From: Erythrobasidium yunnanense | Taxonomy: Eukaryota > Basidiomycota > Cystobasidiomycetes > Erythrobasidiales > Erythrobasidiaceae | Length of the DNA: 64,000 nt | Direction of reading: 5' to 3' | NCBI GenBank assembly: GCA_001600175.1 | Contig: BCJC01000002.1 | Location: 1 to 64,000, forward strand | The notes under the pieces: generated by a model | Database searches by the model: none | What the model saw: only the letters and a program-made list of their open reading frames with translations | What the model was told of the DNA's origin: nothing | Made by a program: the position numbers and the translations under genes | Part shown: piece by piece, positions 32,111 through 57,300 of the stretch | Position numbering within the stretch: the stretch's first letter is position 1 | Layout of the letters: each line of letters starts with the position of its first letter

Positions 32111-34226
32111 ATGACGAGACAGCCGACCCGCTTTCTACACTCTACACAGTCAAGAGGAGGTCTAACACCTGCGCCTGATGCTCCCGATGACATTATCAAG
32201 CTGCGAGCGGAGGTTCAGGCACTAGAGCTCAAGGATGCTCAGTCCCAATCTCAGTAGGTACGCTCTATCTTGCTCAACTCTGCAGATCTAAACTATGAAT
32301 CTAGGATGGCTCTCTTTCGTCCGTTGGGATCTGTAGCTCCCAAAGCTATGTCACCCATCAAGCAACAGCAAGCGGCTCTGGCTGCAGAAAAGCAGCGATT
32401 GGTCCAGCAGTACCAACTGAAGCTGAACATGGAGAAAGAGCAACTGCAAAAGCGCTATGAGCGTGAGATTGCGATGTGCGAACGTGAAGATGCACTCACT
32501 AAGCGCGCTATGGAAGGCCTTGTCGCAAAGCATGGTTTCTCTGGGTTTGGTCCAGTCGACAAAGCTGCGCTATCGAAGGAAGCCAGAGCGAACTTCGTAT
32601 ATGTCACTACCGACTATAGTCAGTACAAGCCATTTGCATATCTCAAGACTGGCTGACGACTTCTGTTAGTTCCCTCCTACGTGGTCGTCAAATGCCTAGG
32701 TGCTGTTAGCGGAACAGCTATTCGCAGGTCAGAAATGTTGCTCCTGCTACAGCTGGTTGCTGAGTCTCGCTCTGCGACAGCTCCGACGAAGCAGAAGACG
32801 ATAGGTCTGGACAACTAGCCAAGAAGAATCAGCAGGAGGCGACGGAGCTACGTAGGTCAGTTCCCTATCTCGTGTAGCTGAAAGCTATAGCCGTGTACAG
32901 TTATACAGAATTCGATCGAACGTGGTGCTAATGGCTGTCTGGGAGTCCGATTCGATTCGAGCGCACCTGTCGGCTTAGGCCACGTCGAATCAATAGCTTA
33001 CGGAACCGCAGTAGTCATCAAGAAAGATGGAGGGAAGAACAAGCAAGGGCAAGATGGTAATCAGGAGGGACAAGGGAAAAACAAAGGCTCAGGCAAGCAG
33101 GAGAAGGAGGTGAGTCGGATGGTGAGAAATTCAGACTGCTTAACTGACGTCATTGCAGGAAGGACCAATGGAGCTGCTACGTAAAGCACTTGCTGAAGAC
33201 GGCTCTAAGAAAGGCCACAAGAAGAACAAGTCTGGCGATGGCAAAGGCGATCTTGTTGGCTACAACCAGATAAGGGCTGTAATGCAGCTCCTCGAACAAG
33301 GACCGCGGGGTAACAACAACTCGAACAATAGCTGGGGCAGCTCTGGCGGGTCAGGCTGGGGAGGCAACTCTGGCGGTAACAATTCCTCTGGTTGGGGCAA
33401 TTCAGGCAACAACGATAACTCATGGGGCAATTCATCCTCTACCAACAATAACGATAGCTGGGGCGCCAGCAATAATTCCGGCGGCGCAGGCTGGGGCGAT
33501 AACAATAATACAGGGGATACGAGCTGGGGCGACAATGCATCCTCCGGAGCTCAAGGAGGATGGACTGCAGGACAAGGAGACAGCTCGTGGGGAGCTGATG
33601 CAGGCGGTGGGTCCTCAGGAAATGATGGTTGGGCTGGCAATCATTCAGGCAGCAACGACTGGTCCAGCAACAGTAACGACAACAATAACAAAACGGGCTG
33701 GGGCAACAATCATGGATCTGGATCTCGCAGTAATCGCAATGGGCAATCTGGTGGTTGGGGTAATTCGGACAACGGGCGCGGCGATGGAGGGTGGGGAAGC
33801 CAGTCGGGAAGTAATGGGAACCAGAGGCGGAAGAACAATAACAACGGATCGTGGAATAACGATAACGGCTCCTGGGGTCACAACAATCAGCAATCAAATT
33901 CGAACTGGGGTCAAAACAACTTCAACGATGAGGACGATGAAGACGAGGACTCGGACGATGATCAAGGATACGGCTATCGACAGAGGCCCTCAAGACGCCG
34001 GTCTCGAGTAAGCTTACGTTCATCACTCGCAGCCAATTTGCCTGACGTACTTTGGCAGAGGCCGCGCCGCAATTCCTTTTATGACGAACGTGATGATGGC
34101 ATCACGAGAGTCATCGCTGAGGCTATCTCTAGAGGACTCACAAGCGTACAACGTTCTCGCGAACCGAGAGAGCAGCACAGCAGGACACACCACAACACAC
34201 CGATGTTTGGGTGGGAGCACGCTTAG
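32111..34226 (+). CDS. YbjQ/UPF0145-domain protein with Trp-Gly-rich tail
   Basis: Seven exons (32111-32253, 32305-32618, 32670-32727, 32781-32851, 32901-33109, 33159-34007, 34059-34226) give 603 residues. Residues 60-130 form a charged coiled coil rich in Gln/Glu/Arg. Residues about 144-235 match the YbjQ (putative heavy-metal-binding, UPF0145) fold: FVYVTTDYIPSYVVVKCLGAVSG, an acidic insert, ATELLIQNSIERGANG, GVRFDSS and AYGTAVVI. A Lys/Gln/Gly-rich spacer follows. Then about 200 residues of Gly/Asn/Ser with 17 Trp, nearly all as WG or GW, then an acidic patch (DEDDEDEDSDDD) and an Arg-rich end. Conserved YbjQ motifs were reached only after splicing, which supports the exon choice. The last intron (51 nt) is in frame without stops. 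Function is unknown; the tail suggests RNA granules or Argonaute binding. The start is uncertain: ATG 32060 is also in frame. Confidence 0.8.
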
Positions 34227-34364
34227 CGCGATTGATGTTGTAGTGGTATCTGTGTATCTTCTGCTTTCCCCTTTCACTTACCGCCGAACGAAGATGTCGC
34301 CGTGCACCGGTCATAGCATTGCCGTCCCTTGTTCCTCTCACTCCAACTCAAACAACTTCGCAAC

Positions 34365-35321
34365 ATGCAAGCTGCCGTCGTAGATCTCAACAAACTCGTA
34401 CTGATGGATTGGCTGCAGGACACTTGCAAAGGAGGGCTTTCCATCATCAAAGACCTTTGAGGTCATATCCCAGAGTCTGAGCAAGGTTCGCAAAGTCGGA
34501 AAGCATAGATTCTGCGACTGGCATTATCTAATCTACTACATCTAACACAGGCTAGCGACGCTGAGCGCAAGGATATGCTCAAGAAGGTCCGGAGTCGCCC
34601 ATTTCACGCGACACATCTGGCTGACACCGAAAGAGCAGGTCAATGGTATATTCGAGATGCGCTTAACCAACTCCAAGAGCGAGACTGTCTCCTACCTTCT
34701 CGACTTCAAGGCAAGCAAGATCAACGATGGTCCAGGCGTAAGCTGATGTAGCCGGATGTCCAGAAAAAGGGAGAAGTCTTCGAAATCACCAAAGACTCAC
34801 CTAAGGTCAAGCCTGACGTTACTATCAACCTCACCGACGAGACTTTCCAGAAGCTGGTGCGCTTAAGACTCGTACATGCCGCTTGAGGTCTGACATTGAT
34901 TATACCCTCAGGCCGATGGTAGCCTGAATGGTCAAAAGGCATTTATGTGAGTTCTCATTAACCGTTTAGTTTGAAGCACTGTGAGCTAAGAATCCTACTG
35001 TTGAAGGACTGGAGCGTTGAAAGGTATTTACTCCCTTGCGATTTATAAAAAACCCGAAACTGACCTGATCTTCTGTTATGTTTATAGTCAAGGGGAACAT
35101 TGTGAGTAACGTATACGCAGTATCAATATGCGGACCTGTCTGATCATCCTTCGTCGCAGATGTCGGTGTTTACAGGCAGGAAGAGGTTCGCACAGTACTA
35201 ATAATTGGTCGTAGGCTCGCTACCAAGCTCGACACCGTACTCAAGGTGAGCTTGCTGCACTTCATTTCCAAGCGAAAGCTTAAGCTGATGTGTTCACCAG
35301 AATGCCAAATCGAAGCTGTAA
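34365..35321 (+). CDS. SCP2-type sterol/lipid carrier protein with SKL peroxisomal signal
   Basis: A small soluble lipid-binding protein of the sterol carrier protein 2 family. Eleven exons (34365-34379, 34432-34485, 34551-34586, 34639-34710, 34764-34856, 34912-34946, 35007-35023, 35088-35101, 35160-35161, 35215-35245, 35301-35321) total 390 nt for 129 residues, the normal family size. Motifs in order: VEGFPSSKTFEVISQSL, AERKDMLKKVNGIFEMRLTN, LLDFK|KKGEVFEITKDS, KPDVTINLTDETFQKL, ADGSLNGQKAFMTGALKVKGNI|M|LATKLDTVLK, NAKSKL. The C-terminal SKL is a classical PTS1, so the protein should enter peroxisomes. The DFK|KKGE junction needs a GC..AG intron, and the KGNIML junction needs a 2-nt exon (AT). 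Both are required to keep family motifs in frame. Confidence 0.88.
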
Positions 35322-36810
35322 AATCTTCGTCTATCCGTTGCGTATCGTGTAGCATCATGTTGCTTACAGCTGGCCAGTATTATCAACACGCCCTTACTAT
35401 CGTCTGGCCTCCCGCGAGGCTTCCCGCATAAGTCCACTAACATCCCATGACTCAATCGGGGTTCCAACAGCATTCTAACCCCTTTTAAAGGGTTAGTTAT
35501 CCTTGACGTGCTGCTGGAGATTTTGACTACGAAGTGGCGAACCAATCCGGTGACTGGGCGTGTGAAAGGGTGTGTGAAAACTGCTGTTGTCTCCTCCCTG
35601 ACTAGCTGCAGGCATGCTAGCATGTAGGTGAGCATTTAAACTGTTGGGCTTGAGATCTATCTGACGGCATGAGTGTTTAGATAGGGACCTGCAAGCGCGA
35701 CACTGGTCAGCTTGCCAACCTTGTCTGGCATCATCCGCCTGCACAATGTCAAGCGCTCAGATTCTATAGATGAGCGCAAGCGACAAGGACTGAGCGGCAC
35801 GCGTATACACATATTAGGTACACACAACTTCAGCAAGGCAGGATATGGGACAGCACAACTGATCTTACTCCCTTTGTTCCTGAATTTAAGTAGACCCCCT
35901 CCGTTGGCTACATCTTCGGTTACAAGGCCACCTGGATCCAAGGACCCATCACCAAGATCCCTCCAATGGATGATGTCGTGTATGCGGCTACAGGACTGCA
36001 ACTCAAGACATCCTTCCCCTTCATTTGTCCGGACTCCCGTAGACTGGCCGTTCCGATATGCACCATCACTTGATAGTCATCTACTTCAGTGATAGGGCAC
36101 GGCGAGCGAAGTGTTTGAGCCGACGCGCCAGCGGCGGCGATAAACACGCAGCGAGTGTGCCAGAGCTCATGCCTCAGCAAAGACTTACTCATCCAGCTCA
36201 GTCAAAGGGCAACCGCTCTTCCCTTCTCTGAATATGCAAGAGCGTATCCGGCTGATCAAGCTAGTCCCTGAATATGCAAGAGCGTATCCGGCTGATCAAG
36301 CTAGTAACTGCCTGCGACAACACCATACGACAGCCGGGGTTGGTCCTCTCCGCCCGGCGGAGCCCTCGAATACACGCGTAGCGCAGACTCCGATGTGACT
36401 TCGCATCCTGGAAGCCGAATTTATGTTGGGTTGCGCCATATGCGAACCGGGCCTTACTTCAGGACGTTACGATGCCCTGGAATCAACCAAACAGCTTGCT
36501 GGCATCCGAGACATTCCAACGATTTGGATCGCGAACACCTCATTCTCACCTGTCACAAGGTCTCGTCCATAAATTCCGCGCAGAAGAGGCCGGATGGCAA
36601 GCGGCCCCTTCTTCCGCTTCGCCAATTACCGGTAAAAGGGCACACAATGCACCAAAGGCTTGCTGCTCTCTTGCTTTCTTTACTACCCCAAGCCTACTCC
36701 GTCCAATCCTTCCCTACAGTCACTCTCCTTACAAACACCCTCTCTTGTGCCTTTATCTCTGGTCCTTCCTTATCCTCATTCCGCGGATCCCTTCAGCAAT
36801 TCAAGTTGAG
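35322..36810. other. 1.5-kb stretch without a recognised gene
   Basis: Overlapping short frames on both strands, none with a domain. It contains a recent 40-base tandem duplication (36229-36306). The last 150 bases are CT-rich and form the upstream region of the DUF1996 gene. Confidence 0.45.
36229..36306. repeat. Tandem duplication, 38-bp unit
   Basis: Two identical 38-base copies (36229-36266 and 36269-36306) separated by CC. Each begins CTGAATATGCAAG and ends GATCAAGCTAGT. No differences between the copies, so the duplication is recent. Confidence 0.95.
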
Positions 36811-38818
36811 ATGATGAGGTTGCTTCTAGCCAGCGCCATCTTGCCTATCTGTCAGGTAGTGGCCGATTGGTCTTTCACATCGTCCACTTTGCTCGTGGCT
36901 AGATATGAGTGAGTATGCATTGAACCGGATTCTGCTTTAGCTAACATCTATACTCAGTCCTATCATGGCGGCAGGTTGGTCCCCAAAATCAGCTTTAAAA
37001 TCAGCTTTTCCGGTTAGAGATCTTACGTGCTCTTTGTTAGGTACATTCGATACGCATGCGCATTGCTTCTTCGGAGCGAATGTTATAGAGTGAGCGAAGG
37101 AACACGAAGTGTACAGGAGCACAACTGACTACTTGATAGACGCACATTCGATGCTGCCAAAGTCGCCAAGTCGGCTTGTACCTCTATCGAAGTTCAAGCA
37201 AACAAAAGTCTGTACTGGCTACCGCTACTCTTCTATCAAAAGAGAGACGGAACCTTCGATGGTGTCGAAGGATGGGCCGAAATTCACTACCGTCAACGCA
37301 ACCACAAAGATGAGAAGATAGTAGCCTTTCCGCCCGTAAGTACGCATACATAGAAAACGTTCTCTTGCCAAGACATACAAATAGGGCATCAAAATGATCG
37401 GTGGCACACCTTTTCGTCGAGTTTATAATGCTTCGAACGAAGGGGATCGTGCTGGTAAGCTTTGCCCATGGAGGATGCTCTAGCGTGTACTAATCATTTG
37501 GTATTCGTGCAGTTTCGTATGTATACGGTCTCGAACATGTAAATAATACATCTAACGCAGCTTGCAGATACCAATGCCTCGACTACTCCCGTGGCGATTC
37601 CGCTCCAACTACTGTCTTCCCAACTCGCGGATGTCCAGATGGCATGATTAGCTCTGTCTGGCTACCTAGCTGCTGTCAGTGCCTTCCTTAGCAGTCCTCG
37701 CGGGTCGGCGCTGATTTGCTCAGTCTCTCAACAGGGGACGGCAAACGACTGGAATCACCAGACTTATCGCATATCGCATATCCAGTGGGCGGTCCAGAAT
37801 ATGGCAAATGCCCTCCAAGCCATCCGGTCCGGTTCATCAATATTCTGGTGGAGGCTTACTGGGAGGCAAGCTTCAACCCATTCGTGACTCGAGTAGTTAC
37901 TCATTTTACATGTTTATAGACTCAATGGTTCGATTATCGAAAGGATGCCCTGACCTGGGCCTTCGGAGATCAGACTGGCCTCGGCTTCCACGCTGTAAGC
38001 GGGCGTACACCATATTTGCGCAGGCTTTACTGATTCCATTAGTAGGACTTCATAAATGGATGGGATACAAAAGTGCTGCAAGCTGCGATCGACACTGTGA
38101 GCCTATGGCGCGTTCTACTTCGCCAGGTGCCGCGCTGATATGCAAATTGCAGTGCAAGAGCGGACTCGATAATTGTGCACCATTCAAAGCATCCAGAGAT
38201 GACGCTCTTGCTGAATCCTGCCGGCCTGTGATGCCAAGTAAGCCGCGATGGTCGACGAACCGCATTCTGCCTCTGACACTGTCACAGTTCCCGATGAGGA
38301 CTACGGCTATGGTCCTGCTATCCCTGCATTATTAGGCGACAATATTGTCTGGCGTGGAACGGGACCCAAGCCTTCCTACCCTACAGGTCAAAAGCCCTTA
38401 GATCCTCCTACAATTATGCCATCCAGTCCTCTAGCAAGCGGATTCATTAGGTCTGGATGCGTCTCCAGTAACGCTCTGAATGGTGCAAGCTATGAGGATG
38501 AGGACGATATGTCTGGCGAGCGATGCACCGCTTACTGTGCTCGAAAAGGCTTCAAGCTGGCTGGCACTCGCGACGGGACCGCTTGTCATTGGTGAGTACG
38601 TGATCTCGAGGGAAGCAATCTGTGCTGAATATGTGTTTAGTGGGAATTCCTTCACTTCAAGCAGCGCTGGCGCATCAGTCGCTATTTCCAAATGCAATGT
38701 TCGCTGTTCCGGCCAGTATTACGAGAACTGCGGCGGTGAACGCAATCTCAGTCTATATACCAAGGTGTCATCTGCTCGAAAACGACATATGAAGGCCGAA
38801 GGTTCGGCCAGGCATTAG
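36811..38818 (+). CDS. Secreted DUF1996 + WSC-domain protein
   Basis: A probable secreted or wall-associated protein. Thirteen exons (36811-36908, 36958-36974, 37041-37089, 37140-37335, 37385-37454, 37513-37516, 37568-37674, 37735-37883, 37920-37994, 38046-38096, 38153-38237, 38288-38591, 38641-38818) give 460 residues. A signal peptide (MMRLLLASAILPICQVVA) precedes the DUF1996 region: ARYDPIMAAGTFDTHAHCFFGAN, VSYQCLDYSRGD, GCPDGMISSVWLPSCWDGK, CPPSHPVRF, FGDQTGLGFHADFINGWD. A Cys-rich WSC-type carbohydrate-binding module follows (RSGCVSSNALNG, CTAYCARKGFKLAGT, CNVRCSGQYYENCGGE). The YSRGD region needs a 4-nt exon (TTTC), and one intron is only 36 nt. DUF1996 has no settled function; WSC modules bind glycans. 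The weakest junctions are around 37500-37570 and 37884-37919. Confidence 0.82.
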
Positions 38819-54336: not shown

Positions 54337-57300
54337 ATGCTCAGACGAGGAGGCAGTAACAGCAACAGCGATGGTCCTATCCCCGGTACACTGGCCGTAC
54401 TCCCATTGCCAACAAGAATCGTCATTCTTCCAGGAGCATCGGTGGTGGGTAGCGGCATAAAACATAGCATATCCAGATGTAGATGATTGACACGTCATTG
54501 CGTAGACCCTCCGCCTCCATCGCAAAGATTCAGTCGCACTCCTGCAGCACATCCTCACATCGAACAGCAACAACAACGGAGCACCCATCATCGCAGCAGC
54601 CCCTTTGAGGATCAAACAGAACAATGACCCAGAGATACAGATCATACGCATCCCGCAGAACGATGGGAGTGGCCAGTCGAATATCCCAGGTGACGCGGCT
54701 GCAAGACCGTCTGTCGACGATATAAACGAGTGTGAGTAGAGCGATACGCTATGTTGAGCATCATACTGACTGCGATCTATACATACAGGGGCTTGTGGTA
54801 CGCCTGCCTACCCTGCAAGAAGCGATAGTGGCGAAGACTGATGCTTTGACATCGCTTGCAGCTTCTCGCATCTCTCGCATCGAGCGCGTCTCAAGCACTA
54901 CAGTCATCAACGGTGTCTCGACATCCCAGCACGACTATGTGATTACTCTTCAAGGCATCTGCAGAGTCCGGATAGATCGATTCACGCAAGTCGGGACGCC
55001 CTTCTTTCAAGCCCTAGTCACTGCATTCCCGTCATCAAGTAGTAAGCTAGCGAACGTACCTGAAGATGCCGCCGAGGCTATTCCACAAGACTTGGTGGAC
55101 CGCATGGCAGATATCGCGAATAACGTGCTTGATATACTAGCTGCAGTAGCCGTATCATCCACTCCTTCCAACAAAGTCTCACGTACTCCTTCTATTCCAT
55201 CACCGGCGCCTCCCCTTCCTGCGTTAGCTATTAAGCGCCTGCGATCCTCTTTGAAAGGAATGACGGTTCAGAACGCAGACGACATCTCCGATCTTCTCCT
55301 CTCCTCACTCTTGCCAGTCAATCGACAAGCTTCCTACCCTGCCAAACTCCACCACTTGAGCTTGTATGCTGGAGCCGAGCGAGTCCTGCATGCTTGTTCG
55401 CAGCTAGAAACGCTCAAGACAGAGTTGGATTCCAGAGAAGCTGTAGGCATCAGATATGCGAACAACATGACTAGGAAGACGAAGGAGATGGTCTTACGAG
55501 GTTTGATGGAAGCTATTCGACAGGAATTACTTGCGCTCAGGAAACAGCAGCAGGACGGAGATGATGATGATTCTTCGTCAAATGGTAGTAATAATGGTAT
55601 AAGAGTCATTCGAGTCGGGAATGGGAATGGTAACAACCCGCTAGGATCGCCTACTTCTTCTGCTTCTGGGCATAATCACGAAGAAGATGAAGAAGAGGAT
55701 GAGCTTGCTGGTCTTGGACAGAAGATCCATGATTCAATCATGCCTCCCGACGCACGCACTATCGCTTTACGCGAGTACAAGCGTCTCAAGACTATTCCTC
55801 CACAGAGCATCGAGCACGGCGGCATTCGGAACTACCTCGACTGGCTACTCGATCTTCCATGGGGCACCTCCTCCAACTCCACCATCTCGAACGATTTCTT
55901 GAATAAAGCGAAACAACAGCTCGACGACGATCATTTTGGTATAGATAGAGTCAAAGAAAGGTTATTGCAATACCTGGCGGTGCTTAGGTTGAGGAATGAA
56001 GCGTTTGAGAATGAGGAACTGAAGTGGAGAGAAGAGGAGAAACGGATCGCTGAAGAGGCGGAGAAAGTTCAGAAACAGCAAGAGCAGGAGGAAGAAGCTG
56101 CGAAGGCGAAAGCGGCTGCGTCTGCAAGACCTGAAGATGGTGTGAAGAGCAAAGCGGTCGTGCCATATGATGCAGAAAAGAATGATAATAACAAGCGCAA
56201 AGCTTCGCCAGCATCGCAGCAGGATGGAAATCGTCTACCTCCTTCACCTACTTCGACAGCGATGATCAAGCAGCAGAAAGAGATCGTTCCAAAAATGCCG
56301 AGACCGCAAAGAAAGGACAAAGGGCCTATCTTGCTGCTAGTGTAAGTCGATCCGTTCGATGAACGGACCATGATGCTGAGTAATCTTCTTTGACGCGACA
56401 GGGGACCACCTGGAGTCGGCAAGACATCTATCGCGAAGAGTGTACGTCCGCTGCGATCGTTTTCTGGTTCTATGCCTGATGTCGATTGTCTAGTTGGCAA
56501 ATGCGCTTGGAAGACCTTATCACCGTATCAGCTTAGGAGGTGTCCGCGATGAAGCTGAGATTCGAGGCTTCCGTCGAACTTACGTAGGCAGTCAGCCTGG
56601 AGTCTTGTGCGTCAAGCTTCACCTTTGCTTTCCGGCTTCAATCAATGCTGATCATGCATCTACCATACAGTGTGCAGGCCCTTCGGAAAGTTAAGGTCAA
56701 CAACCCTGTCTTCCTGCTCGATGAGATCGACAAGCTTACGAGCGGAGCTGGTTTCCATGGAGATCCTTCAGCAGCCATGGTGAGTCGGACCTGAATACCT
56801 GTTAGCAGCTTTGTATGCTGACCTGAAATATGCTCAGCTGGAAGTGCTTGATCCGGAGCAGAATTTCAGCTTCAATGATCACTACATCAAGTAAGCTCGC
56901 CATGTCCTAGTTCAGCTTCCTGGCTAATATTTGCCTGACTTCTAGCACGCCCGTCGACCTGTCTTCCGTTCTCTTCATCGCAACTGCCAACAACCTAAGC
57001 ACTATTCCACCGCCTTTGCTCGATCGAATGGAGGTCATCCATTTAAGCGGCTATGTCGACATTGAGAAGCTCCAGATCGCACGCCGCTATCTGCTGCCTA
57101 AGCAGATCAAAGCGAATCAACTTCAGTCTGGGCATATCGAGATTTCAGACGAAGTCATCCTAGATGTCATCAATCGATATTGTTCGGGAGAGAGTGGAGT
57201 CCGGACACTAGAGAGACAGATGGGCTCCATAGTCCGCTGGAAAGCCGTAGAGTTCGCACGTGTACGAGACTCTTTCAAAGCCGCCGAAAGACCTTCCCTG

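Follow-up and report, generated by a model that had tools for sequence, protein, structure and literature searches.

A predicted two-nucleotide coding exon in an SCP2 gene of the basidiomycete Erythrobasidium yunnanense

The window, by which we mean the whole analysed stretch of 64,000 nucleotides, covers the first 64 kb of contig C2 in the Erythrobasidium yunnanense genome, whose assembly amounts to 20.9 Mb in 10 contigs. On its plus strand, at positions 34365-35321, lies an SCP2 gene whose 11 exons join to 390 nt and encode a protein of 129 amino acids with an SKL end. The features of the gene that matter here are listed below in window positions, together with the evidence on which they are placed.

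34365-34379, plus strand: exon 1 (start, MQAAV), 15 nt; exon model and end-to-end alignment to chain 4jgx
34432-34485, plus strand: exon 2; exon model and 4jgx alignment
34551-34586, plus strand: exon 3; exon model and 4jgx alignment, with the last 12 nt only in the ab initio model
34639-34710, plus strand: exon 4; exon model, ab initio model and 4jgx alignment
34711-34763, plus strand: intron 4, GC-AG (gcaagc...ccag), 53 nt; 55th percentile of 554 introns
34764-34856, plus strand: exon 5; exon model, ab initio model and 4jgx alignment
34912-34946, plus strand: exon 6; exon model and ab initio model
35007-35023, plus strand: exon 7, 17 nt; exon model and ab initio model
35088-35101, plus strand: exon 8, 14 nt, ending in KGNI; exon model and ab initio model
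35102-35159, plus strand: intron 8, 58 nt, gtgagt...cgtcgcag; 95th percentile of 554 introns and of 451 introns (gene masked)
35160-35161, plus strand: predicted 2-nt exon AT, bases 1-2 of a Met codon; frame, family fit, splice scores, ab initio model and simulation
35162-35214, plus strand: intron 9, 53 nt, gtcggt...tactaataattggtcgtag; 16th percentile of 554 introns, 15th of 451
35215-35245, plus strand: exon 10 (G + LATKLDTVLK); exon model and ab initio model
35301-35321, plus strand: exon 11, NAKSKL and stop; exon model and bounded gene-model path

The product is a member of the SCP2 family by its match to Pfam PF02036 (86.6 bits, with a curated cut-off of 21.3). Its residues 2-128 align with residues 2-128 of the 129-aa chain 4jgx, which we take to be Yarrowia SCP2, with an E value of 2e-25. 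The protein has the length of a stand-alone family member and ends in SKL, a peroxisomal targeting signal. All ten introns are 52-65 nt long, and intron 4 begins with GC, as do 18 of the 451 introns in the training set described below. The boundary of exon 1 is the least certain of all, and the intron that follows it has a donor in the 3rd and an acceptor in the 2nd percentile. The ab initio model opens the gene at 34575 and lacks exons 1 and 2, which are predicted from homology. No relatives of this SCP2 were found in a scan of viral contigs, and a search of the genome with an 18-base string, allowing up to two mismatches, gave no intron-less spliced copy. Upstream, a predicted gene at 32111-34226 (plus strand) contains a long repeat tract rich in Asn, Ser, Gly and Trp with GW and NNSWG motifs. 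Rfam gave no match in the window at gathering scores.

Exon 8 runs up to 35101 as ...GGGAACATT, and exon 10 opens at 35215 with GCTCGCTACC. A preliminary description had placed between them two introns of 58 and 53 nt (35102-35159 and 35162-35214) that enclose the bases AT at 35160-35161, and these coordinates are all correct: both introns are of the GT-AG type, and AG lies directly 5' and GT directly 3' of the two bases, with usable introns on both sides. We enumerated the products that can arise between the fixed codons AAG GGG AAC and CTC GCT ACC by up to three excisions of GT-AG, GC-AG or AT-AC introns of 40-140 nt, with nesting allowed. Among the 27 in-frame, stop-free products a single one leaves two residues, I-M, between KGN and LATKLD, and the next-shortest leaves four. 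The claim that the motif is recovered only by way of AT is therefore borne out, as this product restores the KGN-I-M-LATKL spacing and is also first by splice signals alone. The relatives fit this spacing. At the site the alignment with 4jgx, which carries KGNVMKAA there, is ungapped (KVKGNIMLATKLDTVLKNAK in SCP2 against KVKGNVMKAAAIEGILKNAQ), and so is that with peroxisomal multifunctional enzyme type 2 (6z1x and 1ikt, presumably the human protein), which reads RGNIMLSQKL, i.e. KARGNIMLSQKL. Skipping of AT had been said to shift the frame and to remove the SKL end, and translation of the skipped product agrees: it reads KGNIARYQARHRTQ... / KGNIARYQARHRTQECQ..., runs beyond the normal stop and scores 73.3 bits with the Pfam model. 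Retention of intron 8 or of intron 9 leads to an in-frame stop in either case.

Splice signals were judged with a small semi-Markov gene model trained on 260 kb of contig C2 including the window. Its starting material was long open reading frames plus a generic set of splice motifs, and it uses neither protein information nor a minimum exon length. The first training set comprised 554 introns from 85 genes with at least 450 coding bases, the SCP2 introns included (median 57 nt, 4% of at least 100 nt), and with it the model calls the exon 35160-35161. The same 2-nt exon is called by a retrained version that had the SCP2 region masked and drew its splice-site and length counts solely from introns lying between two exons of at least 30 nt each (451 introns). 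In a run bounded to about 34300-35330, the top path reached 20.64 with the exon included and 16.11 when donor 35162 was disallowed, which is a margin of 4.5 nats. The model has flaws, in that it misses the first SCP2 exons, overruns the stop when unbounded and reports some exons of 0 nt. As the latter are artefacts, its vote carries little weight by itself. On a reversed-sequence decoy it called 0 genes, hence this control yields no rate for false microexons. By summed splice score the path with the 2-nt exon is first of 23 GT/GC-AG paths, with 21.1 against 16.6 and 14.2. The rankings by family fit and by splice signals are independent of each other, and the same path comes first in both.

Intron 8 is the stronger of the two by splice score, with a CTGAT branch candidate 17 nt before its end and a cag acceptor. 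Intron 9 has a CTAAT branch candidate and a tag acceptor; its donor gtcggt (35162) is below average (13th percentile) and is found once among the 451 training donors, while donors of the form GTCNGT number 22 in the same set. A perfect TACTAAT branch site had been emphasized for this intron. The candidate is indeed present, but it is not special in this genome, because TACTAAT occurs four times in the window, both strands counted together, against 4.0 expected and the favoured branch is CTGAC/CTGAT (300 of 554 introns in the last training round).

Several other ways of keeping the frame have to be weighed against the 2-nt exon. An exon of 8 nt at 35160-35167 (ATGTCGGT), with the product KGNIMSVLATKLD, would use the same upstream and final acceptors, stays in frame and ranks third by splice score (14.2). 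We nevertheless regard it as highly improbable, as it inserts two residues into a stretch that is ungapped in the family, lowers the Pfam score from 86.6 to 77.2 bits and needs a donor, gtttac, that scores below all donors in the set and is found in 0 of 451 introns, with the resulting intron at the 0.5-1st percentile. Little credence, too, can be given to in-frame, stop-free products such as those from a donor at 35111 (KGNIVSNMLATKLD) or from one 78-nt intron at 35102-35179 (KGNIEEVRTVLIIGRRLATKLD). They reach splice scores of 16.6 and 1.9 compared to 21.1 and Pfam scores of 75.7 and 74.7 bits, both lower than that of the 2-nt path. The 78-nt intron saves one intron, yet a model charge of 8 per intron leaves the order unchanged, and the product from donor 35111 itself still requires the 2-nt exon. 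A stwintron, i.e. a nested pair with a split donor or acceptor, is the least credible alternative of all, even if such introns are described as numerous in some Ascomycota and are spliced in a similarly stepwise manner. The enumeration admitted nested excision with as many as three introns, and the sole two-residue product arises from two complete introns side by side; no splice signal of an outer intron (donor, branch or acceptor) is split by an inner one at the 2-nt exon. Judged by sequence, frame, family fit and splice-signal strength, all of which can be read directly, no rival product is as good as the one with the 2-nt exon.

The main rival is an explanation of a different kind, namely that a single intron of 113 nt (35102-35214) is removed and that two bases, AT, have been lost from the exon end, either by an assembly error or by a real frameshift in a pseudogene or allele. 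This would need no new exon and would leave the same frame gap, and with gtgagt and tag as usable sites the intron is possible (6th percentile of the 554 and 4th of the 451 introns). Its length is an outlier, however, both in the genome, where 11 of the 451 training introns have at least 113 nt, and next to the other SCP2 introns. When the bounded run was restricted to the 113-nt intron no complete gene was called. The remaining frame is intact and the assembly has 10 contigs, which speaks against a loss of bases. Moreover, the single intron leaves unexplained why a complete acceptor (CTGAT, pyrimidines, cag) lies inside it and is followed by precisely the bases AT and a usable donor. How often this would arise by chance was estimated from 40000 simulated introns of 113 nt that kept the first 6 and the last 20 bases of the real intron as well as the real flanks; they were scored with the 554-intron model, which had the SCP2 introns in training, and not with the masked one. 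The bare stop-free pattern AG-NN-GT, flanked by introns that each have 38 nt or more, is found in 3225 of them (8%) and thus proves little by itself. A 2-nt exon with a summed score at least equal to the observed one, in contrast, occurs in just 3 of the 40000, in one case as AT, and frame-restoring exons of 2, 5, ... 20 nt reach that score in 17. Hence a single intron combined with a 2-base deletion has to treat the acceptor, the AT and the usable donor as coincidence, and we consider it improbable.

We therefore think it very probable that the 11-exon SCP2 gene has a constitutive coding exon of 2 nt at 35160-35161, which supplies the AT of the Met in KGNIMLATKL and keeps the frame through to the SKL end. 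Like the other short exons described below, for which the evidence is likewise drawn from sequence throughout, it is a strong prediction and not a proof. We infer the use of the exon in RNA, its constitutive nature and the order of steps. Most likely, the two short introns would be removed sequentially by intron definition, because an exon of 2 nt could not hold U1 and the 3' splice-site factors together; given their footprints, simultaneous occupancy of a U1 site and an upstream AG two bases apart is impossible. Both introns have lengths close to the mode, which makes intron definition natural. Whichever intron leaves first, AT would thereby become part of an ordinary exon, and removal of the remaining intron could proceed as usual. 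Intron 8 probably leaves first, as its signals are stronger, and the mRNA would be identical in either order. Regulated skipping of the 2-nt exon, by which the peroxisomal signal would be removed, seems less likely. As to the origin of the pair, a duplication left no sign, since the local alignment score of introns 8 and 9 was reached in 446 of 1000 shuffles, and when the genome was searched for further copies of either intron, in line with the idea of introners, only their own locus matched.

The SCP2 exon is embedded in a genome in which ultra-short exons seem to be frequent, as far as can be judged from the sequence of 260 kb. Of 471 internal exons called there, 29 have at most 20 nt and 10 at most 5 nt. 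Four of these ten are confirmed by a family motif (SCP2, GAPDH and two in a PhoD-type gene) and one lies in a DUF1996 match; the rest are three of 0 nt, a CT at C2:64207 that is apparently wrong, and a predicted CAA at C2:222934. Such calls are leads unless a family motif confirms them. The short exons of 4-11 nt called there include the following.

C2:118144-118148, plus strand: 5-nt exon ATTCG of a GAPDH gene (C2:118049-119844), completing GINGFGRIGR
C2:64968-65044, minus strand: consecutive 5-nt exons TCTCA and TTGAT of a PhoD_2 phosphatase gene, with a 67-nt intron between them, completing DDHDLIDGFGSYP
C2:197788-197796, minus strand: 9-nt exon AAACACGAC of a VTC4-like SPX domain, encoding KHD of KKHDK
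C2:120452-120462, plus strand: 11-nt exon of a METTL16-like methyltransferase, ungapped there against psilocybin synthase
Window 37513-37516, plus strand: predicted 4-nt exon TTTC of a DUF1996 gene, inside the Pfam match, flanked by good introns (splice scores 12.0 and 9.6)

In the GAPDH gene there are three in-frame paths, and GINGFGRIGR is obtained only via ATTCG; the product, with one intron joined by eye, aligns to solved GAPDH chains. The double 5-nt path of the PhoD_2 gene has the best score of 99 and is the sole one of the 99 with DDHDLIDGFGSYP, which we take to be a conserved motif. Its Pfam match reaches 141.6 bits over the 308 residues searched. The 9-nt exon of the VTC4-like protein is ungapped against 5ijp and against the VTC4 chain 5iiq, and the best solved relative of the methyltransferase is psilocybin synthase, followed by METTL16-type enzymes. 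Two kinds of call were rejected. The 2-nt exon CT at C2:64207-64208 in the same PhoD-type gene was judged an artefact, as its introns are weak (4.8 and 6.4) and it skips a stretch that is presumably conserved, and the 0-nt exons at C2:35628, 146038 and 224550 are artefacts as well. Besides, a 9-nt exon is predicted at window 54789-54797 (plus strand) in a Lon-like protease and a 10-nt exon at C2:215685-215694 (plus strand) in a 5'-nucleotidase-like gene, both names being assigned by eye from the translated sequence. On contig C1, another 50 kb yielded two predicted internal exons of at most 12 nt in 18 genes. Short exons also occur in strings, such as the 17-14-2-31-21 nt of SCP2 and the two consecutive 5-nt exons of the PhoD-type gene. 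We lean slightly towards the view that in this lineage it is routine for conserved motifs to be assembled from exons of 2-11 nt, and that strings of tiny exons are handled purely by intron definition. If so, the lineage would offer a natural model for splicing without exon definition, and the surrounding genome suggests that ultra-short exons are probably no freak cases there. In genomes of this kind, annotation programs that impose a minimum exon length will cut conserved proteins short or shift their frame, GAPDH included.

If real, the SCP2 case would provide a 2-nt exon in a fungal gene that is short and easily tested, and would allow a compact check on whether the spliceosome requires any exon sequence between two introns. 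It had been placed at the extreme of what is known. It is near that limit but not at it, because 1-nt exons are on record (PMC4674806; PMC12940212). The closest counterpart is the 1-nt exon of the CYP621A P450 genes of Fusarium, reported for 24 genes with RNA reads from two species and described by its authors as the first in any fungal gene (Nelson and Syed 2026, PMC12940212). Both are fungal ultra-short exons between complete introns, betrayed by a conserved motif that cannot be rebuilt otherwise, whereas the SCP2 exon has 2 nt and is read from DNA sequence in one gene of another family. The same report cites exons of 2-5 bp from Arabidopsis, Drosophila and human, which belong to the size class of the SCP2 exon but are not fungal. 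In the portions of the open-licence literature covered we found no 2-nt exon in a fungus. Among plants, 1-nt exons have been confirmed in Arabidopsis APC11 (PMC4674806) and in VPS55 (PMC8831610). Like these, the SCP2 exon is too small for exon definition; unlike it, they are conserved across land plants and confirmed by cDNA, RNA reads and RT-PCR. The APC11 authors suggest that the introns are removed one by one, their methods list a 2-nt-exon construct (A > TT), and they give 3 nt as the smallest exon experimentally characterised before APC11 (PMC4674806, 2015). Short fungal exons that are longer than the SCP2 AT include an 8-nt exon within a conserved motif of a Phanerochaete P450 (PMC12940212) and the microexon of Trichoderma Xlr2, described as alternatively included (PMC11121469). 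Microexons are also mentioned in the abstract of a paper on Phanerochaete P450 genes (PMC1184071). The stwintrons of Ascomycota resemble the SCP2 pair in that two introns are removed by consecutive reactions, but there the internal intron splits a splice signal, while the SCP2 introns are each complete and leave two coding bases behind. Thus, the SCP2 exon is extreme but not unprecedented, being already exceeded by exons of a single nucleotide.
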